Positions 3,712-57,634 of a stretch of DNA of 64,000 nucleotides are shown in pieces. Each line of letters opens with the position of its first letter. Within the stretch, counting starts at the first letter, position 1. The notes below the pieces were generated by a model. That model made no database searches. It worked only from the letters and a program-made list of their open reading frames with translations, and had not been told where the DNA came from. Location of the stretch: positions 62,001-126,000 of IMG/VR virus record IMGVR_UViG_3300042484_001250, one strand, 5' to 3'. The DNA is from a virus. Made by a program: the position numbers and the translations under genes.

Positions 3712-4041
3712 ATGTCAGAGGAAACAGAAAACTCAGGAGGAGGTTCATTAAAGAGTATTTTAATTGGACTTGCTAGCACAATCGCATTGGGAGTTGGTGG
3801 TTATGTAACCAAGCAACTAACAGGTGAAAAAGATGAACCGGCAGCAGCAACATCAGCACCAGCACCGGTAATTAACATTACTAACTCAAACCAACAATCA
3901 CAGAGAGCAGCCGGAGGCGGTGGAACTAAAGTGATTGAGAGAGTAATAGAAAAACCAGCAGCTCAAACTCAACCAGCACCTGCTCCTAAACCAAAGAAAA
4001 AAGAAGGAGACGAGTTCAAAGAAGAAAAACCTCAATGGTAA
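3712..4041 (+). CDS. Small single-span membrane protein with Pro/Ala-rich tail
   Basis: Has 109 residues: a short Ser/Gly-rich N-terminus, one transmembrane segment (about 14-36, LKSILIGLASTIALGVGGYV), an Ala/Pro/Asn/Gln-rich linker, and a Pro/Lys-rich end (PAPKPKKKEGDEFKEE). A Pro-rich periplasmic tail behind one membrane anchor is seen in spanin-like and TonB-like proteins, but no family is recognisable. It is followed by two small holin-like genes, so a part in lysis or envelope crossing is a reasonable guess only. A TATAAATA sequence lies at 3695-3702, just before the start. Confidence 0.55.
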   Translation: MSEETENSGGGSLKSILIGLASTIALGVGGYVTKQLTGEKDEPAAATSAPAPVINITNSNQQSQRAAGGGGTKVIERVIEKPAAQTQPAPAPKPKKKEGDEFKEEKPQW

Positions 4042-4047
4042 TATAAT

Positions 4048-4383
4048 ATGGAGAATCAACAACCTGATGGATTTAAGCAACTCTTAAATCAAATGATGAA
4101 ACGTAGGTGGTTAATTACATTAATTGTGTTAATTACTTTTATGTTTACTACATTTGGAATTATGATTTCTATTCATATAGATACGGCTGTTGGACAAGAA
4201 TGGAAAGAATTATTACTTTTATTATTAGGGGCATTTATTGGTTCTTATGGTAAAATTATAGATTACTGGTTTTCTGATACTGATAAAGATAAGATGTTAG
4301 TTCAGAAAATGGATGAAGAAGATGGAGTATCTCTTTCAAATACCGGTGGAGCAGCAGAATCATCGGAAGAAGAATTAGGTTAA
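4048..4383 (+). CDS. Two-span membrane protein, holin-like
   Basis: Has 111 residues. Two hydrophobic segments are visible, about 19-43 (RWLITLIVLITFMFTTFGIM) and 54-72 (ELLLLLLGAFIGSYGKII), followed by an acidic tail that ends SSEEELG. The protein at 4458-4745 has a similar layout and ends DEEELG. Size, two spans and charged tail fit a phage holin or a related pore-forming lysis protein, and the lipase nearby fits a lysis theme. Not assignable to a named holin family by eye. Confidence 0.5.
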   Translation: MENQQPDGFKQLLNQMMKRRWLITLIVLITFMFTTFGIMISIHIDTAVGQEWKELLLLLLGAFIGSYGKIIDYWFSDTDKDKMLVQKMDEEDGVSLSNTGGAAESSEEELG

Positions 4384-47900: not shown

Positions 47901-48136
47901 AAACTCAATTGGGTTTATCTGCGCAAGAAGTACAAAATGTATTTCCTAATATTGTATCACTAGCACCATTTGATATGAAGGTATATTTACCAAATGAAAC
48001 TAAAACCGATACACCACCCGAATCTAAATCTGGAGAAAACTATTTAACAATTGATTACTCCAAATTAGTACCTGTATTAGTTGAGGCAATAAAAGAATTG
48101 AAAGCGGAAATTGAAGAATTAAAAAGAAATAAATAA
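41966..48136 (+). CDS. Giant tail fibre with C-terminal S74 intramolecular chaperone
   Basis: Has 2056 residues. The N-terminal ~950 are beta-rich virion-attachment and repeat modules. Residues ~970-1400 contain Ig-like repeats (VFEVVPTNVTLNSNAEG and VIITPTNITLNADENG mark two). Residues ~1480-1900 are fibre-like with short strands and GxI repeats. The end is a peptidase S74 auto-chaperone: YYSDERLKTK with the candidate nucleophile Ser1938 and Lys1943/1945, then TQLGLSAQEVQNVFPNIV and LTIDYSKLVPVLVEAIKEL. S74 domains trimerise the fibre and then cut themselves off. It is therefore a probable receptor-binding fibre. Its stop overlaps the next start by one base. Confidence 0.85.
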   Translation: MARIKKYASNQTTNLQPQLTEYGTFVTDQLPSSIYFRISEFKDTFTGGKNGFLIEGSEHLLESTEIKIEIIDVNGNPIYYEPGDGIPEYYEGLSKLVAVYIYEDTPIGIANITILGELKTYIDSEGNVQPIPEEWKGIYNVKWQKEFKVNRLIANEDRVRFYKRPQVSITELIKPLYSNVVAQKTNNGTVSGIPLAPLENQPLSEYSLPTSYLLTITDNGVYNAWSSSVVGNTISVPSLGYTTTADDIINKTQLVVTNPYTDSNGLVQPFVSAPYTTTFNYLEGVNDLATALTGSFAKISLTDLTSFVGDVARVKVFRKSQSDLSDFQFIQEIQLEANELLLDLDIPTKNQENYGIFTSDIIKDYWVTSSNNLTATFNQSYLYNSVKLNSNSSVYKFHTSKSISITEDVEYTLDFKVRSETSTGNGYIKAFLSGSRDGTNGKVQVEQQIIAVPAQTAVLQKSTVTKNIIAQQMATASLYFEVSGNDWYVSDVSLKASQESSFSPDEITFIQSVPRTLPEETFIYRFEFYDINNNYIPVNVEETKTFNGGNLQTIRKGLQLLPSSLYFQFDSGSNPVPPTSINIQVVKTLLTGSVRYTSQSFDYDGSTHTALQYAGGQYPGVLNQTNPDNVVLTVGNFTGSRSDKNVQYLEITGEVEGFTDTIIITKVLDGFGGVNYIIRPYRGTQIRNSSTASLEIQAVRIDGINEIILNDTIGKPKGWPTYQLHVLSASLDPLNEPERFINLQKAVNQNYIKGLSVGELGSKQINYNAIFNRDSINKVRVVYILSSGSITQQPAFIASASVLTSINLEDLQDGLDSGFMVYNTDTFTINPRTQTIFTPVSASVTGSFYKRGTNVEPFTASFEVFPSMSLNIDFEPEYWMYYVTGKFHPNISVVAIDEKKREIPSRAVSNHIYSPLSQSKTLTVTLTYTEDYTSSSISLDKTFTIVPEGKPGDESIVFEVVPTNVTLNSNAEGTVLDYKPSITDIKLKQGSRYLIFTGSRAAGTFHIASSSISSQNITPGNVHFTSSFGIPYTASLIVSQSSNLTDLSGSITYPLIIHPYYTSSIYTQSIVQNYTKAVDGPPPIDVIITPTNITLNADENGFVSTLAPAQTTIQLREGSKFLTFNSNSAETPGTFKFGSTPTQNITISTLQGNGTNSATASFSLFNYPHVSASVNYNIIAFPYSLGPGHRFTSSVFNRTQTITKNVAATAARTINLTSTAYTITYDSDGQVVNPTDGITLVATAFNTTGSRFYQFFKDDVAQTPIQTTATRNVAPEDAVAVGEVATWKVTLRDGSNSASAPIRAQASVTIAGVGDGTKAYNAVVNPENTSIVYKVSGELEIANTSAVITATKGGEALTHRPSGFSAQSQDPFGNNIGSLGEYQVTIHSKSNHIVLGDSKVSGSVLNGSTNATISNLAGWVNPIGNPTGQIVYRINFENGKQITFKTQSIAIQYEGDTGPGIVMRGVWNQTTNYIGSVETTNYRRDAVIWPDPGNSGGNTRYYAAISGSGPGTATGYHEPVYSPSPVDSAWWQYLGDQEFFVAAKIAIFDESFVKNTINIGNNAGSPFANIVLAGGRDDPYMAIGQNGTVGGNGIQYDPSTHPTIIGYDKIGIFAGMYNGATYEPRFSLRGSGGNYLRWNGSTLDISGAITVTGGDAATQTYASQSAATALSSALTTVNALAAGTYNIGTTTFITNNFISAPVIAGTAGYIQKLFRVGDDTAASIYLDARNIADGAADNYRRIWIGSGAYGIYGDSNTSFYVDSNNRFSLGDKLTFTGGNLSVSGNITSTGGSIGGWTIDSNSIFSGTKGTNGAYTAAAGSVTISSEGWISSKNFRISSTGAVNADVIDVSDVLASSAYFGTARGNYTIAIDTNAMTLAGYSRFDLGAVAGIVGTYTSFIAFTDGGGTPSGTILSSFGATGLTVNGAITATGNITAYYSDERLKTKLGNITNAIDKISQLNGFYYTNNELANSFGYTDDKTQLGLSAQEVQNVFPNIVSLAPFDMKVYLPNETKTDTPPESKSGENYLTIDYSKLVPVLVEAIKELKAEIEELKRNK

Positions 48137-48882
48137 TGGCACTACCAGCATCAGGACAAATTTCAATGGATAATATGAACACCGATAGAGGAATAGCATC
48201 TGGTACTCAAATTAATTTGGCAACTGCTGGTACTGCTTATAGTGTTTCTTATAATACAAGTGGAACTAACGATTTACAATTTTCTGAATTTTATGGATTA
48301 AGTATAACACCTGTATATACATCATATAGCAGTAGTCTATCTACTGGTGCTGAAGCTGGTTGCTATGCTGGAGATTTTTATACCGATTTTACTATAACAT
48401 TGTTAGACCAATTTGGAAATCCAATAAGTTTAGGTTACGATGTTGATTTTGGAATAAAATTCCTTTTAAACGATGTACAAGATGTTGGTGGTGGTTATTA
48501 TCCTGACACAATTACTAATGTAAGAATCTTTGCAGGATTTCCAACAGGATATCGAAGATTTTATGATAAACGATATCTAAATTGTAACTTTAGTTCATTA
48601 TGTGATGGTAGTTGCTATGAAGAATCAACTGGTATGTATATATTTGAAGGACCAATAACAGTAACTACAACAACTACAACAACTACAACAACCGCAGCAC
48701 CCATATATAGTGGATTGATTTTGTGTGGTGAAACCAATGTAGATTATTATTATACAGGCACTATATCATCTGGTGACCATTTATATAGTGGTGCTGGTAA
48801 TTGTTATGTATCAACCGGTACAATAGGTTCAATATTTGGTAAAGTTGAAATATTTGGCACAATAAATGGTTGTAGTTGTTAA
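48136..48882 (+). CDS. Tail-associated protein with Thr10 tract
   Basis: Has 248 residues. The N-terminus (LPASGQISMDNMNTDRG, then LQFSEFYGLS) is a common start of phage tail or fibre accessory proteins. Residues ~60-170 form a beta domain with several Cys. Ten Thr in a row (177-186), then AAP, link it to a C-terminal Cys-containing domain (LILCGETNVDYYY, ending NGCSC). The Thr tract looks like an O-glycosylation linker, and glycosyltransferase genes follow directly. It begins at the last base of the giant fibre gene, so the two proteins probably act together on the virion. Confidence 0.6.
   Translation: MALPASGQISMDNMNTDRGIASGTQINLATAGTAYSVSYNTSGTNDLQFSEFYGLSITPVYTSYSSSLSTGAEAGCYAGDFYTDFTITLLDQFGNPISLGYDVDFGIKFLLNDVQDVGGGYYPDTITNVRIFAGFPTGYRRFYDKRYLNCNFSSLCDGSCYEESTGMYIFEGPITVTTTTTTTTTTAAPIYSGLILCGETNVDYYYTGTISSGDHLYSGAGNCYVSTGTIGSIFGKVEIFGTINGCSC
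48664..48693 (+). repeat. Trinucleotide-type repeat encoding ten threonines
   Basis: Consecutive ACT/ACA/ACC codons, with a nine-base period ACTACAACA repeated about three times. Such a repeat can change length by slippage in units of three or nine bases without breaking the frame. Confidence 0.85.
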
Positions 48883-48888
48883 TATATT

Positions 48889-49848
48889 ATGGTAAACACT
48901 ACTAAAAAACTACGTTATATATGCGCTCAACCTGCTATTACTTATTACATTTGGCAGGTTGAAGTAATGTTAAACAATTTTATGCAGATGGGTATCAATT
49001 TAAATAATATTGATATTGTATGCTGGCAACAAAATGATGAACTACCTGAAGAATGGAGTAAACTATCTAACAATTATGAAGCTAGATTCTTTTTTTATAG
49101 GGATACTAGAGAAACTCATCATTACATTTCATCAATCCGTCCTAATATTTTAAAGCAACATTGGAAAGCGCATCCTTATCTTAAAGATGATACCATATTT
49201 TACCACGATTGCGATATTATATTTACCAAAAATATAAAGGAATGGATAACGGATGAGATGATAAATGATGATAAATGGTATGGTTCGGATACTAGATGGT
49301 ACATATCACACTCTTATATCAAATCTAAAGGTGATGATGTAATACAAAAGATGTGTGAGTTAATGGAATTGCCTGAAACACTTATTGAAGGTAATGAACT
49401 AAACGCAATTGGTGCACAATATCTAATGAAAGGTGTTGATTATGATTATTGGAATAGAGTAGAATCGGATTCAGAAATGCTATTCAAAGAAATTACCGAA
49501 CAATGTAATGAAAAAGTAAAGAAAGACCCTACACACCACCCTTTACAAATATGGTGTGCAGATATGTGGGCTGTATTATGGGGAGGTTGGAGATTGGGAT
49601 ATGAGACAGTATGTCATCCTAACTTTGATTTTAGTTGGGCTACGTCTGGTATAGATGATTATTATAAAATGAACATCATGCATAACGCAGGTGTAACAAA
49701 CTCAACATCAGGTATGTTTTACAAAGCAGACTATATAAATAAACTACCATATAATGAAAACATAATTATTGATAAAAATTATGCATCTTATTATTATTGG
49801 AAAGAAATATGTAGAACTTCTAAAAAATCAGTATTAACAAAAAAATAA
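48889..49848 (+). CDS. GT-A-like glycosyltransferase
   Basis: Has 319 residues. FYHDCDIIFTKN carries a DxD-type metal/nucleotide-sugar motif (Asp-Cys-Asp) after a predicted strand, as in GT-A fold enzymes. Further features are LRYICAQPAITYYIWQVEVML at the start, WHKAHPYL-like and KWYGSDTRWYIS segments, and a late GWRLGYETVCHPNFDFSW region that could bind the acceptor. It lies six bases after the Thr10 protein, ahead of two more glycosyltransferase genes. Which sugar and which acceptor it uses is unknown. Confidence 0.65.
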   Translation: MVNTTKKLRYICAQPAITYYIWQVEVMLNNFMQMGINLNNIDIVCWQQNDELPEEWSKLSNNYEARFFFYRDTRETHHYISSIRPNILKQHWKAHPYLKDDTIFYHDCDIIFTKNIKEWITDEMINDDKWYGSDTRWYISHSYIKSKGDDVIQKMCELMELPETLIEGNELNAIGAQYLMKGVDYDYWNRVESDSEMLFKEITEQCNEKVKKDPTHHPLQIWCADMWAVLWGGWRLGYETVCHPNFDFSWATSGIDDYYKMNIMHNAGVTNSTSGMFYKADYINKLPYNENIIIDKNYASYYYWKEICRTSKKSVLTKK

Positions 49849-49879
49849 TAAATAATCGTTTTGATAAATAAAAAAACAT

Positions 49880-49888
49880 ATATTTATA
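49880..49888 (+). promoter_or_regulatory. Phage promoter motif ATATTTATA
   Basis: Exact ATATTTATA preceded by T, 22 bases before the small coiled-coil gene at 49911. Confidence 0.6.
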
Positions 49889-49910
49889 TATAAACATATA
49901 GAATAAAATT

Positions 49911-50195
49911 ATGGCACAACGTAGTGAACAATTAGCAGAAGAAACTTATAATAAATTAAGAAATCTGCAAGACGAAATAAATAATTTAGTTGTAACAATT
50001 GGACAAGCGCATTTGCAAATAAGAGATGCTGAAACTCAATTGAAAAACTTTAAATTCTCATTGGAAAATTTAGAAACTCAATTTGATGAAAAAAATGAAG
50101 AATTAAATGAGGTATTGTATGTAATGGAAAAGGCATATCCAAAAGGAGAGATTGATTTAATTAATGGTACAATCACTTACGAAGAAGCTGAATAA
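49911..50195 (+). CDS. Small coiled-coil protein, paralogue of 53611-53973
   Basis: Has 94 residues: a helical coiled coil through most of its length, then KAYPKGEIDLINGTITYEEAE. The end (YPxGxIxxxxGTxxY) also occurs in the protein at 53611-53973 (KYPQGRINIQDGTVQYQ), so the two are paralogues placed before and after the two large glycosyltransferase genes. Both have a phage promoter motif. Possible roles are a virion or assembly subunit, or a chaperone. No named family. Confidence 0.55.
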   Translation: MAQRSEQLAEETYNKLRNLQDEINNLVVTIGQAHLQIRDAETQLKNFKFSLENLETQFDEKNEELNEVLYVMEKAYPKGEIDLINGTITYEEAE

Positions 50196-50222
50196 AAATT
50201 AGGAAATACCAAAAAAGTTTCG

Positions 50223-50230
50223 TATATTTG
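50223..50230 (+). promoter_or_regulatory. Host-type -7 box almost at the start codon
   Basis: TATATTTG matches TAnnTTTG and ends only five bases before the ATG at 50236. Transcription would then start at about the start codon, giving a leaderless or nearly leaderless mRNA. The context TTCGTATATTTGT is the same as before the primase. No clear -33 TTG is seen, so strength is uncertain. Confidence 0.5.
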
Positions 50231-50235
50231 TTATA

Positions 50236-52416
50236 ATGAATAATACACGTAAAAAATTGTTATACGTTGCTCCTCACTTATCTACTGGAGGACAACCACA
50301 ATATCTATTAAAGCAAGTTGAACATTTCTACAAAGATTACCAAATAAAGGTAGTTGAAGTTAGAAATAGTGGGGGTGATGCATTTGTGGTTCAAAAAAAC
50401 AAAATCAAAGCATTAGTTCCCGTACACACTTTATATGAGGATAAATCGGATATACTAAAAGTTATAGATGATTTTGAACCTGATATTATTCATTTTCAGG
50501 AAATACCACAACACGATTTAGATTACGATATATTGGATAAAATATGGGATGATAATCGTAAGTATTTTATTATAGCAACAACACACGGCTCATTTACAGA
50601 CCCCGATGCAATTATTTACCAACCCGATAGATATGTGTTAGTATCTGAATGGAGTAGAAGAAAGTTTGAACATTTGGGTGTTGATACTATGTTGTGGGAA
50701 TATCCAATTGAGGATATTAAATACGATAAAGATAAAGCAAAGGAGGTATTAGGATTTGAAAAAGATTGGAAGCACGTTCTTAATGTAGGATTGTTTGCTC
50801 CCGGCAAAAACCAAGCTGAAATATTTGAGGTAGCTAGATTGTTGGAAAAATATAAAATAAAATTTCACTTTGTAGGAAACCAAGCTGGAAACTTTGAGGA
50901 TTATTGGAAACCTTTGATGGATGATAAACCATCTAATTGTGTAGTGTGGGGGGAACGAAATGATGCTGATAAGTTTTACGCAGCAGCTGATTTCTTTTAT
51001 TTCTCAACACTTTGGGAATTGAATCCATTATCAATTAAAGAAGCACTATCATATAAACTACCATGTATCTTTAGAAGGTTACATACTTATTTGGATACCT
51101 ATGATAATAATCCATTGGTAACTTATATTGATGGGGATGTACCTGCAACTAAAAAAATTATATTAGAACAATTAAAACCTGATTTTGGTGAAATAGAAGG
51201 GTGGTTCTACTATAATCATATGTATAAAGATATAGTTCAAGCTGGATATGATGGGTGTGAATTTGTAGAAGTTGGTGTGTGGAAGGGCAAATCTACCAAT
51301 TATATGATTCAGAAAATAAAAGAGTCTGGTAAACGTATTCACTTTACAACTGTTGATACGTTTAAAGGAACTGAATCGGAACCTTGGCATAACCCAGTGG
51401 TTCAACATTATAATGGAGATTTATTTCCTGAATTTATTGATAACACATTATTATCAAACAACTATGGGTTATTTGATATTATAAAAGATAATTCCGTAAA
51501 TGCAGCAAATCAATTTAAGAATAATAGTATTGATTATATAATGATTGATGCCGGGCATACTTACGAAGATGTTACAACTGATTTAAAAACTTGGTATAAA
51601 AAAGTAAAACCGGGTGGTATTATTAGTGGTGATGATTATACAATAACCGATGGTGTAACCAATGCTGCAAACGATTTCTTTTATGGGCAATTTGATAAAA
51701 CGTATTATAGGGCATTCTTACGAAAGAAACCTAGAATTCAAATCAAACATTTATTAACATCTCCATTTAACGCAAGAGAATATATTAGTATTGCTTCCAT
51801 AAAACAATTACAAAAATATGGAATTGATTACACTCAAAGTGTAACTGAAGTGTATAAAGATATTCCACCTACCGAACATTGTAGGAGACCCGAACATATA
51901 AGTAAAGATAATAAGCCGGGTGAGTTATGGCCTGGCGCTGGATTGGGTTGGATAACTGGTGGACATTATGGGTGTTATTTAGCACATAAGAACGCAGTTG
52001 ATAGCTTGGATGATAAATACGATTACACTCTTATATTCGAAGCAGATGCGTTCATTTACACCGGTTTGGAAGAGTTTGTAGATATAGTTCACAAAGCGTG
52101 TTTCATTTCGGAAAGAGACGATGTGTACTATATTGGATTGGCAAATAACCCATCTCGTTCAAAAGAAAAGGTAGATGAATTATTTTCACAAACCGCACAT
52201 AACCAAGACCTTGCACATGCTTATTTGGTTAGAAACAAAGATAAACAATGGTGGAAAGATAGGATAGCAGATTGTGAATGGGATGTTGGTGATTTATGGT
52301 ATAATCACGTATTTGCTAAATATCCAATGAAAAGATATACTACAAACAAAATGTATAGTAATCAGACGGAGGGATTCTCATTATTAGACCAAACAATTAA
52401 AACTTGGAACGTATGA
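50236..52416 (+). CDS. Three-domain enzyme: GT4-like, methyltransferase, GT25-like
   Basis: Has 726 residues. Residues 1-~310 are GT-B/GT4-like (LYVAPHLSTGGQPQYLLKQ, then VLNVGLFAPGKNQAE, then ADFFYFSTLWELNPLSIKEAL with the donor-binding Glu). Residues ~330-500 are a class I SAM-dependent methyltransferase (FVEVGVWKGKST with Glu345, then YIMIDAGHTYEDV). Residues ~515-726 resemble GT25 enzymes (YGCYLAHKNAVDSL, then LIFEADAF with Glu602/Asp604). One chain could add, methylate and extend a sugar. The stop overlaps the next gene (ATGA). It may act on virion fibres or host surface glycans. Confidence 0.75.
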   Translation: MNNTRKKLLYVAPHLSTGGQPQYLLKQVEHFYKDYQIKVVEVRNSGGDAFVVQKNKIKALVPVHTLYEDKSDILKVIDDFEPDIIHFQEIPQHDLDYDILDKIWDDNRKYFIIATTHGSFTDPDAIIYQPDRYVLVSEWSRRKFEHLGVDTMLWEYPIEDIKYDKDKAKEVLGFEKDWKHVLNVGLFAPGKNQAEIFEVARLLEKYKIKFHFVGNQAGNFEDYWKPLMDDKPSNCVVWGERNDADKFYAAADFFYFSTLWELNPLSIKEALSYKLPCIFRRLHTYLDTYDNNPLVTYIDGDVPATKKIILEQLKPDFGEIEGWFYYNHMYKDIVQAGYDGCEFVEVGVWKGKSTNYMIQKIKESGKRIHFTTVDTFKGTESEPWHNPVVQHYNGDLFPEFIDNTLLSNNYGLFDIIKDNSVNAANQFKNNSIDYIMIDAGHTYEDVTTDLKTWYKKVKPGGIISGDDYTITDGVTNAANDFFYGQFDKTYYRAFLRKKPRIQIKHLLTSPFNAREYISIASIKQLQKYGIDYTQSVTEVYKDIPPTEHCRRPEHISKDNKPGELWPGAGLGWITGGHYGCYLAHKNAVDSLDDKYDYTLIFEADAFIYTGLEEFVDIVHKACFISERDDVYYIGLANNPSRSKEKVDELFSQTAHNQDLAHAYLVRNKDKQWWKDRIADCEWDVGDLWYNHVFAKYPMKRYTTNKMYSNQTEGFSLLDQTIKTWNV

Positions 52417-53561
52417 TATACGAAAATTTAAAAAGAAATATAAATAATATAACCGAAGTAAAAAACAGCGTATCGGTTAATTTTGTTAAAGGTGCATTTG
52501 TAGAAATAAAAGGACCTTACAAAGCAGAGTACACCGTTGATTTTATAGATAATAGGAGTGGTAAACGTATATTTGCATCTGATATTGGAAATAATTGTTG
52601 GACACGGTGTACTAAAGAATATTTTGTAGAATGGAAAATACAAATTTATCAAAATGGAAAACTTTGGTATGAACATTTATATGATGCAACTGATAAGAGA
52701 GTTTACATCCCATTGGATTCAAAAGCATTGGGTGATACAATGGCTTGGTTTCCATATGTAGATGAGTTCCGTAAAAAACATAATTGTAAAGTTGTAACAT
52801 CTACTTTTATGAATGATTTATTTGTAGATGAATACCCTGAATTAGAATTTATTAATCCCGGTGAAGCAGCTGAAAACCTTTATGCAATGTATTCGGTTGG
52901 TTTATTTTACAATGATAATAACGAACCAAACTTACAAAAAAACCCAAATGATTTTAGAAAACAACCATTGCAAAAAATGTGTTCGGATATTTTAGGATTA
53001 GATTATGTGGAGGTTAGACCTAAAATAAAACACAATCCAATTGAAATAAATTCAGAATTAAAACAAATTACTATTGGTGTATTTGGTACGGCTCAACCTA
53101 AATTTTGGAATAACAAAGATGGCTGGCAGTATGTAGTTGATTGGTTAAACTCAAAAGGATACACAGTCAAACTAATATCAAAAGAAGGAGATGATTATAT
53201 GGGGAATAAATTACCAACGGGAATTGTTAAACATCCAAACGGTCCTTTGAGTGATGTAATTGATGAACTTAGAAAATCAAAAGCATTTATAGGAATTGGT
53301 AGTGGGTTGAGTTGGTTAAGTTGGGCAGTTAATACTCCAACGGTATTGGTGAGTGGATTCTCATATGATTGGGCAGAAATGCAAGATTGTGTAAGAATTG
53401 GTGCACCTGAAGGAAAGTGTAGTGGATGTTTCAATCGGTATAGATTAGATGCTGGTGATTGGAATTGGTGTCCTGACCACAAAGGTACGGATAGACAATT
53501 TGAGTGTACCAAATCAATAACACCACAATCGGTAATAAAAGAATTAGAAAAATTCTTATAA
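52413..53561 (+). CDS. TibC-like protein O-heptosyltransferase
   Basis: Has 382 residues from ATG 52413, which overlaps the previous stop; an in-frame TTG at 52404 is less likely. The C-terminal half is GT-B of the heptosyltransferase kind (ITIGVFGTAQPKFW, then FIGIGSGLSWLSWAVNTPTVLV). Four Cys, 336, 339, 353 and 365 (KCSGC, NWCPDH, FECTK), form a metal site as seen in the autotransporter heptosyltransferase family (BAHT, e.g. TibC), whose members glycosylate Ser residues on beta-helical adhesins. In a phage with huge beta-rich fibres next door, those fibres are natural candidate acceptors. Acceptor and donor are inferred. Confidence 0.72.
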   Translation: MIYENLKRNINNITEVKNSVSVNFVKGAFVEIKGPYKAEYTVDFIDNRSGKRIFASDIGNNCWTRCTKEYFVEWKIQIYQNGKLWYEHLYDATDKRVYIPLDSKALGDTMAWFPYVDEFRKKHNCKVVTSTFMNDLFVDEYPELEFINPGEAAENLYAMYSVGLFYNDNNEPNLQKNPNDFRKQPLQKMCSDILGLDYVEVRPKIKHNPIEINSELKQITIGVFGTAQPKFWNNKDGWQYVVDWLNSKGYTVKLISKEGDDYMGNKLPTGIVKHPNGPLSDVIDELRKSKAFIGIGSGLSWLSWAVNTPTVLVSGFSYDWAEMQDCVRIGAPEGKCSGCFNRYRLDAGDWNWCPDHKGTDRQFECTKSITPQSVIKELEKFL

Positions 53562-53576
53562 AAATTAAAAAACAAT

Positions 53577-53585
53577 ATATTTATA
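53577..53585 (+). promoter_or_regulatory. Phage promoter motif ATATTTATA
   Basis: Exact ATATTTATA preceded by T, 25 bases before the coiled-coil gene at 53611. The downstream bases resemble those at 49880, as expected for paralogous genes. Confidence 0.6.
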
Positions 53586-53610
53586 TATAAACAAACAAAA
53601 CAATAATATT

Positions 53611-53973
53611 ATGGCATTAAATGTTCCACAAATACAAAACGTAGAGATTGCAACTGCAAAATTGGATGAAGATGTAATTAAACAAATTCAAGAATTAAAC
53701 CAAAAATCTTCTATATTAATTAATGAGTTTGGTTCAATATATCTTAGAAAACAACAAATTCAAGAAGAATCACTTCGTATGGATGAGTTTTTAGAAAAAG
53801 CTAATGATGATTATAAAATGTATCAACAACAATTAAACGAAATTGGAGAGCAAATTGATGAAAAATATCCACAAGGTAGAATTAATATCCAAGATGGTAC
53901 TGTTCAATATCAACCAGGTGCACCAACTCGTAAGCAATTAGCTGAGCAACAATCTCAACAAGCTAATCAATAA
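53611..53973 (+). CDS. Small coiled-coil protein, paralogue of 49911-50195
   Basis: Has 120 residues. A helical region (DEDVIKQIQELNQKSSILINEF, then DYKMYQQQLNEIGEQIDEKYP) is followed by the shared ending YPQGRINIQDGTVQYQP and a Gln-rich tail. Paralogous to the protein at 49911. Small coiled-coil proteins of this type near tail and head genes often serve as scaffold or chaperone parts, but nothing specific can be said. Confidence 0.55.
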   Translation: MALNVPQIQNVEIATAKLDEDVIKQIQELNQKSSILINEFGSIYLRKQQIQEESLRMDEFLEKANDDYKMYQQQLNEIGEQIDEKYPQGRINIQDGTVQYQPGAPTRKQLAEQQSQQANQ

Positions 53974-54019: not shown

Positions 54020-57000
54020 ATGAGTGAATTATCTAACTTTTTAGTAGAAAGCATATTAGGGGAATCTGCCGAAATGGAAAACGTAATAGTTGTCTATTCT
54101 GGTAGATTTCAACCTTTTCATAAGGGGCACTTCGCCACATACAAACAACTTGTATCAAAATTCGGAAAAGATGATGTTTACATAGCAACATCCAATAAAA
54201 CCGATAACCAAAAATCTCCATTTGATTTCAGAGAGAAAAAAACCATAATGACTAAAATGTTTGGTATCCCATCAAACAAAATAGTTCAGGTTAAAAATCC
54301 ATATCAACCTACGGAAATTGTAAGTTCATACGATGCAGCTAAGACTGGTTTAATAGTTGTAGTTGGTGAGAAAGATGAACAACGTTTGGGTGGAAATTAT
54401 TTTACTCCATATAAAGGTAAGGTAGAGATGGGATATTTGGATAAGGGATACGTTTATGCTTCACCTGCTCAATCAAATCCTATAAGTGGAACTGATGTTC
54501 GTAATTGGTTAAGTAAAGGAACTGATGACGAAAAGAAAGAGGGATTCTTAAAAGCATATCCAAAATTTGATGCAACTGTTTTCAAATTTATTACTCTAAA
54601 ATTAGCAAAACTTTCTGAAGATATTAACTTAGATGTGAATGTAGGTGATACTCTTTTGATGGGCAAGTTTAAGAACAAAAGAGTAGTTGTAAAAAATATT
54701 GATAAAGATGAGCATGGTATGCCAACTATCAATGGTAAGAAAGCAACTACATTTAGAATCCCACCAAAATCAAACCTATTTAATGAATCATCTAACTTTG
54801 GTATGGCTGGTGCTGAACCAGGTGAACCAAACCCAAACTACGTTGCCGATGGACAAGCTCGTATATTAGATAAAGGGAAACCTGAAGGTTGGTTTAGACA
54901 AGGTGGATACACCCAAATAGATAAACCAAAGGGTGATTGGATGCGTGGTAAGGGTAGAAAAAAAGAATCGGAATCAACATTTAGAAAAGTAACATATTCA
55001 CTTAAAAACTATAAAGAATCTGAACTAAATCCAGCGCAAGACCCATACCATACTGAAGATTGGGTAGAAACTGAACCAAAGAAAAAAATTAAAAAACCAA
55101 AAAGATTTTGGGAAGATACTGAAATGGATGTAAAAATATCATTAATATCTGAAGAAGAATTAAACGAAATTGCTGAAGATTATATAACCGCATTGGATGA
55201 AATGGGATTGGGTGGAGGAGCCGGTGTTGGTTTATCTTTACCGGGTGGATACATAAATGGTGCTCCGAAAGCAGATGATGTTGCCAAAGTAAGTAAGAAG
55301 TTGAAGAATAAAGGTATGAGTGGGTATGAGGAGGTTGATGAAGAAACTATTTTAGAATATAGTGGAAATGGTGCATTCTACAACGATGGTAATGCAACAA
55401 GTGGTACAATGTGGAATGCTGATTGGGATGATTACAATAATGCAGAATACTATTTAGATAATTTAGAGGGTTGGTGTTTTTATCACGAAGACCCATCTGA
55501 ATATGAAAAGAAAAAATCAGTAGACCAAAAGTTACCAACGGATGACCAAAACGATGGAAAAACTGATAAGTACAATCGTATATTAAAATACAACTTTCCT
55601 AAACCAGAAGATTTAACGGAGATGGCTAAATCTGATTTAGACCAGGTTGAGAAATATGCTGACCAACAATTATCTCCCGAAGATATTGAATTGGGAAAGG
55701 AAACTGACCATTTTTTCCAAAGATTAAATGACCCTCGTAATGGTAAACAAATATCAGCAGCCGAATTAACTGGTTTCTTTAAAAGATTGGCAAAAAATAA
55801 AAAGAAATTTTTAGATTTTGTAAAACAATATAAGGAGTTTGTAGTTAAAGATAAGAGAACAAACATCAATATTCCATTTATGACAGTAGCAAACAAATTG
55901 ATTGCTAAAACCATAATGAGAAAGGATGATTTCAAATCTTCAACACCAGTTTATGTATCCGAACAATCTTTGAGTGAAATTACAAAAGGTATCTACGGAA
56001 AGAAAATAAAAATCAATGGTGAAATAATTGAATTACAAGTTGAGTTAGTTGGGGCTGATAATAAAACAAATGAATTTATTACAAAAATAGTTCATATTGA
56101 TAAAAAATATCAAAACAAATATCCAATTGGTTCTACACTAAAAGTACCGGCACGAATATTTAGATTACCCGGCGGTGGTTGGTACAAAGTTAAAAATAAA
56201 GCATTTGAAGCAATAACTTCAAAAAATCATAAAGCAGATGGAACTGCTGACCACAATTTTACACAACATCATAAATCATCATCATATACACCTGATTATG
56301 GTTATCCTGCTGAATTAGATACAATTGATTTTGATGATGATAGAGAAATAGAACCTGGTCATCAAACGGATACAAAAGATAAACAAAACAAAGGATACGA
56401 ACCTGTTAAAAAAGTAAACGAAAGTAAAGATTTAATAATTGAAGGTGGGGCTTATGGACACATGCACCATCCGTTTGATATTGAAATGAACCTTACGTTC
56501 TCTGACCTAAAGAACATCGTTAAGAAAGCACTTACTGGAGATTTGGATGTAGCAAGAGAAAAAACCGATGGACAAGCATTGGCAATTAGTTGGGTAAATG
56601 GAAGATTAGTTGCTGCTAGAAACAAATCACATCTAAAGAATAAAGGTGAGGGTGCTATGACAATAGGACAGGTAGCTGATAAGTTTGCTGGTAGAGGCGG
56701 ACTAACCGATGCTTACAACTTTGCTATGAGTGATTTATCAAAAGCAATTGGTTCATTATCCGAACCACAAAGAAAAAAAGTATTTAATGATGGAAGTTCG
56801 TTTATGAATTTGGAAGTAATATATCCAACATCGGTAAACGTAATTCCATACAACCAACCACTATTAGTATTTCATGGTACATTTGATTATGATATCGATG
56901 GTAATATAAGTGGTGAGAATCAACAATCAGCACGAATATTAGCTGGTATGATTAAGCAAGTAAATGCAAGTGTTCAATCCAAATACACAATACAAGGACC

Positions 57001-57634
57001 ACCAATGCAGAAATTACCAAAGAGTGAGAATTTAACAAAACTACAATCAAAGTATATGAGTATGATATCTAAACTACAAAGTGAGTTTGGGTTATCTGAT
57101 TCTGATGGGGTAGCTGATTATCATCAAGCGTGGTGGAGTAACTTTGTGGATAAAAACGCAAAAGGATTAGATGCACAAGAAAAGATTGGTTTGGTTAAGA
57201 GATGGGCATTTGGAGATAAAGGATTCAGAATAGCAACAATACAAAACCCTAAATTAAGAAGTTGGGCAGACAATACTGAAAAGAAAGACCAAGCTAAAAT
57301 AGCAAAAGATAACCTAATGAAATTTGAAGAAATATTCTTAGGTGTTGGTGCAGATGTACTTTCATTTATGGAATCAGTACTTACCGCAAATCCAACGGAA
57401 GCAACTAAACAAATGGTAGCTAGATTACATAAGACGGTTGATGATGTTAGAAAGTTGGGAGACCCTAAGAAGTTGGATAAACTTAAATTAGAATTACAAA
57501 GATTACAGGCATTAGGTGGATTTGAAAAGATAGTTCCAAATGAAGGTATCGTATTTGTATATAACGGAAACACTTACAAATTAACAGGAGCATTCGCTCC
57601 ACTTAATCAAATATTAGGTCTTTTTTACGAATAA
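54020..57634 (+). CDS. Nucleotidyltransferase (NMNAT-like) fused to a ligase-like domain
   Basis: Has 1204 residues. Residues ~20-200 are an HxGH nucleotidyltransferase: YSGRFQPFHKGH (HKGH at 34-37) and ISGTDVR at 155-161, as in NMN or pantetheine-phosphate adenylyltransferases. The middle (~200-800) is poorly conserved in appearance, with charged and Gly-rich parts and a beta domain near 660-740. Residues ~815-1204 look like an ATP-dependent ligase: KTDG at 848-851 (motif I lysine Lys848), GRLVAARNKSHL, FMNLEVIYP (motif III-like) and EGIVFVYNGNTYKLTG (motif IV/V-like). The chain could link NAD or nucleotide synthesis with nucleic-acid end sealing, or be a virion component packaged with DNA; both are inference. 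Confidence 0.75.
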   Translation: MSELSNFLVESILGESAEMENVIVVYSGRFQPFHKGHFATYKQLVSKFGKDDVYIATSNKTDNQKSPFDFREKKTIMTKMFGIPSNKIVQVKNPYQPTEIVSSYDAAKTGLIVVVGEKDEQRLGGNYFTPYKGKVEMGYLDKGYVYASPAQSNPISGTDVRNWLSKGTDDEKKEGFLKAYPKFDATVFKFITLKLAKLSEDINLDVNVGDTLLMGKFKNKRVVVKNIDKDEHGMPTINGKKATTFRIPPKSNLFNESSNFGMAGAEPGEPNPNYVADGQARILDKGKPEGWFRQGGYTQIDKPKGDWMRGKGRKKESESTFRKVTYSLKNYKESELNPAQDPYHTEDWVETEPKKKIKKPKRFWEDTEMDVKISLISEEELNEIAEDYITALDEMGLGGGAGVGLSLPGGYINGAPKADDVAKVSKKLKNKGMSGYEEVDEETILEYSGNGAFYNDGNATSGTMWNADWDDYNNAEYYLDNLEGWCFYHEDPSEYEKKKSVDQKLPTDDQNDGKTDKYNRILKYNFPKPEDLTEMAKSDLDQVEKYADQQLSPEDIELGKETDHFFQRLNDPRNGKQISAAELTGFFKRLAKNKKKFLDFVKQYKEFVVKDKRTNINIPFMTVANKLIAKTIMRKDDFKSSTPVYVSEQSLSEITKGIYGKKIKINGEIIELQVELVGADNKTNEFITKIVHIDKKYQNKYPIGSTLKVPARIFRLPGGGWYKVKNKAFEAITSKNHKADGTADHNFTQHHKSSSYTPDYGYPAELDTIDFDDDREIEPGHQTDTKDKQNKGYEPVKKVNESKDLIIEGGAYGHMHHPFDIEMNLTFSDLKNIVKKALTGDLDVAREKTDGQALAISWVNGRLVAARNKSHLKNKGEGAMTIGQVADKFAGRGGLTDAYNFAMSDLSKAIGSLSEPQRKKVFNDGSSFMNLEVIYPTSVNVIPYNQPLLVFHGTFDYDIDGNISGENQQSARILAGMIKQVNASVQSKYTIQGPPMQKLPKSENLTKLQSKYMSMISKLQSEFGLSDSDGVADYHQAWWSNFVDKNAKGLDAQEKIGLVKRWAFGDKGFRIATIQNPKLRSWADNTEKKDQAKIAKDNLMKFEEIFLGVGADVLSFMESVLTANPTEATKQMVARLHKTVDDVRKLGDPKKLDKLKLELQRLQALGGFEKIVPNEGIVFVYNGNTYKLTGAFAPLNQILGLFYE

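Follow-up and report, generated by a model that had tools for sequence, protein, structure and literature searches.

A threonine tract and its adjoining PHROG 4417 glycosyltransferase as a probable portable module for virion glycosylation in phages

The stretch of DNA analyzed here (the window, 64,000 nucleotides) comprises bases 62001-126000 of the 133,285-base virus record IMGVR_UViG_3300042484_001250. It carries, next to a giant tail fibre gene, a gene whose product contains a run of ten threonines (Thr10), and this gene is followed by three glycosyltransferase genes (Table 1). The initial annotation had recognized this arrangement, and each element of it is in place. It had further proposed that the TibC-like enzyme encoded by the third of these genes (a TibC/AAH-type O-heptosyltransferase, here BAHT) might glycosylate the fibre or the Thr10 linker. 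In our best reading, the partner of the Thr tract is not BAHT but the product of the first glycosyltransferase gene, which had been left without a name and which belongs to PHROG 4417. It is likely that PHROG 4417 enzymes O-glycosylate the Thr tracts of virion proteins, and that tract and enzyme constitute a tag-plus-enzyme module moving between phages. Hence, the part of the earlier proposal that placed a glycosylation island here stands as regards the sugar-modification genes beside the fibre and the Thr tract, which by genetic linkage is very likely a glycosylation substrate, but not as regards the TibC-like enzyme as its partner.

Thr tract and PHROG 4417 are linked both within and between phage groups. 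Loci were sampled around the 80 viral homologues nearest the window's protein, around the 80 nearest the Bacillota ones, and around 44 from bacterial genomes, and the homologues, from phages of Bacteroidota and Bacillota, were reduced to 78 clusters at 85% identity. Among these non-redundant homologues a Thr tract was encoded at position -1 relative to PHROG 4417 in 64 of 77 cases and within positions -1 to -3 in 67 of 78, and it was found at +1 in none of 78 and at +2 in none of 76. The background rate, obtained from BAHT loci without PHROG 4417, was 2 Thr tracts in 750 open reading frames. In records of 58 kb or more that have PHROG 4417 but no adjoining tract, a tract was located elsewhere in five out of five, versus one out of 19 BAHT records without PHROG 4417. 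The gene was also found directly 3′ of a gene for a Thr-rich tract in the cultured phages Enterococcus 4995_1, Lacticaseibacillus R3.3, Staphylococcus SA2, Lactobacillus 521B and LpeD, and Chryseobacterium MA9V-3; in several of these the tract makes up the tail at the C-terminus of either the major head or the major tail protein. Tract carriers could be identified as virion proteins of the major tail (PHROG 88 and 238) and major head (PHROG 10 and 840) type, and the Bacteroidota PHROG 4417 loci lie within tail-gene regions.

Major tail proteins provided a natural experiment. Homologous proteins were fetched by means of a profile from which the Thr tails had been left out, and 73 of them had informative downstream sequence. 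PHROG 4417 was encoded downstream of all 17 Thr-tailed proteins (within 14 bp in 16 cases, and at 345 bp in the other), whereas 55 of the 56 tail-less ones lacked it (Fisher p=1e-15 over the 73, kinship ignored). In the sole exception, L496, PHROG 4417 directly follows a different, upstream protein of 83 aa that ends in (T)11AAP(T)7. In the best tree, for which the protein was used without its tail, nine changes of the trait are counted, and the three independent contrasts on supported branches are all concordant. The contrast is therefore strong, yet the p-value alone is not phylogenetically corrected. In a replicate with head proteins, nearly every relative was close and bore a Thr tail, and the single tail-less homologue was cut off.

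These distributions bear on two other explanations. According to the first, Thr tracts would be plain flexible linkers, associated with the enzyme by chance, through common descent or as an artefact of assembly. Low-complexity linkers are common and many of the loci are related; however, the carriers belong to unrelated protein families and to phages of two bacterial phyla, the homologues had been cut to 85% identity or less, the Fisher value above was obtained within one protein family, and complete cultured phages show the pair too. On the linkage statistics we reject chance or artefact, and we give this explanation next to no credence. According to the second, PHROG 4417 modifies another target (a host surface polymer, DNA or another protein), and the Thr tracts are recombination hot spots at which genes are inserted. 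Phages do encode glycosyltransferases that act on host polymers, Thr tracts are repetitive DNA, and most Thr10 loci lack PHROG 4417, all of which would suit such a view. Insertion at repeats, however, predicts no one-sidedness, in contrast with the preference for -1 over +1; furthermore, PHROG 4417 is absent from the loci of tail-less tail proteins, tract and gene were relocated together in L496, and the hosts span Gram-positive to Gram-negative bacteria, with no shared surface polymer. We consider this second explanation unlikely.

We then asked which enzyme of the window goes with the tract, using 80 BAHT loci from related contigs, all the proteins of which were clustered. PHROG 4417 was absent from 71 of the 80, and none of these 71 had a Thr tract; conversely, each locus with a Thr tract had PHROG 4417, and each locus with PHROG 4417 and enough upstream sequence had a tract, carried by proteins that are mutually non-homologous. 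Thus, Thr tract and PHROG 4417 form an optional, co-occurring module, separate from a fixed cassette that comprises the fibre, a GT4-methyltransferase protein and BAHT. In the window the Thr10 codons are mixed (ACA, ACT and ACC), and no other stretch of seven or more Thr codons exists in the 133 kb record. The nearest relatives (L011 and L012), with BAHT proteins 93-94% identical to that of the window, carry orthologues of the Thr10 protein in which the 57-aa N-terminus is common (79-84% identity) and Pro-rich linkers occupy the place of the Thr tract, and PHROG 4417 is absent from the whole record.

Glycosylation of the Thr10 linker (and of the fibre) by BAHT has in its favor that BAHT is a bona fide member of a protein O-heptosyltransferase family, and that its gene is the fourth after that of the Thr10 protein. 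Nevertheless, this proposal meets the complete lack of Thr tracts in the 71 loci that have BAHT without PHROG 4417, and the Pro-rich linkers in relatives with closely similar BAHT copies. In addition, the annotated phage collection holds four records with BAHT versus 74 with PHROG 4417, the latter with Thr tracts in all those examined, and TibC modified serine, not threonine, in its mapped peptide (Yao et al. 2014, PMC4358343). BAHT as the enzyme of the Thr tract is accordingly very improbable.

At the same variable site, genes for 2OG-Fe(II) oxygenases or DUF6445 proteins were observed in other loci (L015:294-839, L069:5948-6505, L078, L079, L037:2561-3151 and L067), and in L015 and in L069, L078 and L079 they adjoin genes for proteins with Pro-rich (PTP, PPP) linkers. 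Prolyl hydroxylation of Pro linkers, in parallel to the pair of Thr tract and PHROG 4417, is possible; the L011 and L012 loci, with their Pro-rich linkers, contain no 2OG-Fe(II) oxygenase or DUF6445 gene.

The 319-aa protein matched PHROG 4417, which is annotated as of unknown function, over nearly its full length (E=8e-62; residues 9-309 on positions 2-290 of the 293 of the profile), and sequence searches with PHROG 4417 against PDB and Pfam gave no match. A single-sequence AlphaFold2 model was discarded (pLDDT, the predicted local distance difference test score, of 43), and with an alignment of 50 sequences the pLDDT was 96.3. The top PDB fold matches of this model were all GT-A enzymes, namely UGGT, LgtC, XXYLT1, glycogenin, alpha-1,3-galactosyltransferase and LARGE (E about 1e-5, probability 1.00), and D107 and D109 of a DxD motif were invariant in 50 diverse PHROG 4417 sequences. 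The modelled fold is that of a GT-A glycosyltransferase, for which glycosyl transfer is a predicted activity. PHROG 4417 thus shares the GT-A fold and the DxD motif with GT8/GT24/GT6-type enzymes (glycogenin, LgtC, XXYLT1, UGGT), several of which glycosylate proteins; it differs from them in forming a family of its own, with no Pfam or PDB sequence match and with TM-scores to solved enzymes of about 0.5 or less (by query length). In three loci (L054:939-2936, L072:4663-6660 and L070) the PHROG 4417 protein carries a radical SAM/SPASM domain fused at its C-terminus.

In the mechanism that we propose, PHROG 4417 would be a metal-dependent GT-A enzyme that takes a sugar from a host nucleotide sugar and attaches it to the Thr-tract hydroxyls of the protein encoded just upstream, so that a short, mucin-like O-glycosylated linker would be formed on a virion-associated protein. 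The enzymatic activity, the identity of the sugar, threonine as its acceptor, the location in the virion and the biological benefit are here predictions. Tract and enzyme would act as a portable pair of tag and writer, the tract being elsewhere the C-terminal tail of a major head or major tail protein, or a linker between adhesin domains. Phages of Bacillota often have PHROG 4417 as their sole gene of this kind in the interval from the tail protein to the following tail genes, and this points to a system of one enzyme that draws on a host sugar nucleotide. The genes that follow PHROG 4417 in other loci include GT2, GT6, GT25, PF04488 and Caps_synth proteins, methyltransferases and radical SAM/SPASM proteins, and none of these glycosyltransferases was found among 36 genes after Thr10 tracts, nearly all from loci without PHROG 4417. 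Since such glycosyltransferases, methyltransferases and radical SAM/SPASM proteins vary after PHROG 4417 in Bacteroidota phages, these further sugar genes probably extend or cap the glycan. That the pair recurs in many unrelated phages, on proteins of the capsid and the tail tube and on adhesins, suggests that it is probably a portable kit for the sugar coating of virions. With somewhat more reserve, we favor the wider claim that PHROG 4417 founds a new glycosyltransferase family, and that its module has been grafted, in phages of at least two bacterial phyla, onto one or another virion protein exposed at the surface (capsid, tail tube, decoration protein or adhesin linker) to give a mucin-like coat.

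Several observations weigh against this proposal. Only eight of the 59 coding Thr10 loci from viral contigs (several of these contigs are short) have PHROG 4417 nearby, always directly downstream. The majority of Thr tracts must therefore lack modification, receive it from different enzymes or depend on a gene located far away. In 11 of the 78 homologues no tract was present in the three upstream genes, and a few PHROG 4417 homologues are found in loci that do not appear to be of phage origin (e.g., L378, Pedobacter). For the tail proteins, the tree offers only three supported independent contrasts. The search for nucleotide-sugar synthesis genes elsewhere in the genome, which the initial annotation had suggested as a check, yielded none with rfaE_dom_II, Epimerase and NTP_transferase. 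With the TM-scores given above, donor and acceptor are not readable from the structure, and we infer glycosylation itself from genetic linkage, fold and motifs.

BAHT, for its part, is a true homologue of TibC-type enzymes (phmmer E=4e-56 to PDB 4rap; 293 bits to NCBIfam TIGR04414, for an equivalog cut-off of 200), as the initial annotation had perceived. Residues D111, T229, K233, W304, C339, C342, C356 and C368 are invariant in the 80 phage copies, which keep the equivalents of the catalytic Asp110, Thr226, Lys230, Trp305 and the four iron-finger (iron-coordinating) cysteines of TibC. Three of the four sugar-ligand residues of TibC are kept, the fourth, Arg286, being replaced by Val (79 copies) or Leu (one), and Pro300 is also replaced (by Gly in the window copy). 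Unlike TibC and AAH, the window's BAHT is encoded in a phage tail operon and has no autotransporter target in its genome: the canonical strand-loop-strand repeat, TIGR04415, was absent, and a positive control matched in E. coli. The known targets of the family are serines in autotransporter repeats.

The fixed core of the BAHT loci consists of the fibre, the 726-aa GT4-methyltransferase protein, whose gene lies directly upstream of BAHT in 77 of 81 loci, and BAHT itself, with the fibre gene upstream in 49 of the 51 loci with enough sequence. In two loci the GT4 and BAHT/GT9 domains are fused (L008:4750-8430, Microcystis phage Mel-JY01, and L169:1000-3006, minus strand); the Mel-JY01 fusion is annotated as 'methyltransferase FkbM'. 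Directly beside BAHT (directly downstream in L050, L085 and others) an HldE adenylyltransferase is encoded in 30 of the 80 loci, and a kinase as well in 19. The two HldE halves are the best families of these proteins, with scores below the equivalog cut-offs; those phages may thus help to make ADP-heptose, and we take this as indirect support for an ADP-heptose donor. No HldE gene was found in the window's own genome, and a protein of about 1200 aa (54020-57634) was dropped as a candidate ADP-heptose supplier because its N-terminus is NMNAT-like.

A second, independent cassette fixed beside the fibre, the GT4-methyltransferase protein plus BAHT, would then probably transfer heptose onto serines of a fibre-region protein, and the giant fibre is a possible substrate. 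Such an activity is compatible with the role proposed for PHROG 4417. The fixed gene order, the neighbouring HldE halves and the invariant catalytic and iron-finger residues speak for heptosylation of the giant fibre, or of another virion protein, by this cassette (sometimes with a split HldE). On the other side stand the lack of TIGR04415, the replacement of the sugar-binding Arg286 in all phage copies, the HldE scores below cut-off and the lack of HldE in the window's genome, and the cassette could instead act on host surface glycans or another protein. We rate this assignment at a little less than an even chance.

Table 1. Features of the glycosylation region (positions in the window)
Feature	Position	Strand	Basis
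Giant tail fibre, 2056 aa	41966..48136	+	PHROG tail-fibre matches; C-terminal S74 intramolecular chaperone PF13884
Thr10-linker protein, 248 aa, containing TVTTTTTTTTTTAAP	48136..48882	+	N-terminal anchor domain, Thr10, Cys-rich C-terminal domain
Thr10 tract, aa 177-186, proposed O-glycosylation site	48664..48693	+	Thr-tract linkage to PHROG 4417
PHROG 4417 glycosyltransferase, 319 aa, proposed Thr-tract O-glycosyltransferase	48889..49848	+	GT-A fold, DxD D107/D109
Small coiled-coil protein, 94 aa, first of pair	49911..50195	+	Family in nearly all BAHT loci
GT4-type glycosyltransferase + Methyltransf_24 protein, 726 aa	50236..52416	+	Pfam
BAHT (TibC/AAH-type O-heptosyltransferase), 385 aa, TTG start	52404..53561	+	4rap, TIGR04414, invariant residues
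Small coiled-coil protein, 120 aa, second of pair	53611..53973	+	Family in nearly all BAHT loci

The gene order in the window is giant fibre, Thr10 protein, PHROG 4417, coiled coil, GT4-methyltransferase protein, BAHT and a second coiled coil, beyond which the NMNAT-like protein, a small gene, and terminase and portal-like genes are encoded. The giant protein next door is indeed a tail fibre, as had been claimed; the Thr10 protein had been called tail-associated, for which its position is the basis. The 726-aa protein has Glycos_transf_1 and Methyltransf_24 domains, and its last 200 or so residues are unassigned. The two small coiled-coil proteins are related to each other and flank the GT4 and BAHT genes, usually as two copies per locus; they are possibly chaperones or a scaffold for the cassette. 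Elsewhere in the record, outside the window, an outer-membrane beta-barrel protein of 1086 aa is encoded (G000:C1:40421-43681, minus strand; L005:2421-5681), with carboxypeptidase-regulatory and TonB plug domains, which is unusual in a phage and suggests that the host belongs to the Bacteroidota. Also observed were two successive genes (G000:C1:2419-3945 and 3948-4364; L003), the first for a homologue of tryptophan halogenase (PF04820, E=1e-101) and the second for a small protein with a SET domain.

Poly-threonine tracts occur widely among phage proteins and have so far been unexplained; the linkage assigns a putative function to the tracts and to PHROG 4417 together, allows glycosylated virion proteins to be predicted from their sequence, and directs attention to phages that can be cultivated. 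If the proposal is true, virion self-glycosylation would be a recurring modular trait rather than a peculiarity of mycobacteriophages, with a bearing on phage adsorption, stability and immune recognition, and the PHROG 4417 enzyme could serve as a simple protein-tagging tool. In the open-access literature on poly-threonine phage proteins, TibC in phages and phage tail glycosyltransferases we found no precedent, nor any account of a Thr-tract tag that has an enzyme of its own, nor a function ascribed to PHROG 4417. Virion glycosylation as such is already known in mycobacteriophages, and what is apparently undescribed is the PHROG 4417 enzyme family.

The proposed product resembles that of eukaryotic mucin-type O-glycosylation, in which Thr/Ser tracts of surface proteins are densely glycosylated. 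This is an analogy only: no homologous enzyme was found, and the PHROG 4417 system would be cytoplasmic, phage-encoded and tract-specific. Closer to it are the mycobacteriophages Che8, Corndog and Myrna, whose phage-encoded glycosyltransferases modify their own capsid and tail-tube proteins (Freeman et al. 2023, as summarized in PMC12363180). As in the role proposed for PHROG 4417, a phage enzyme acts there on the phage's own virion proteins. The summary of that system mentions no Thr-tract tag with a dedicated neighbouring enzyme, and the hosts differ as well, being mycobacteria in that case and Bacillota and Bacteroidota for the phages with PHROG 4417.

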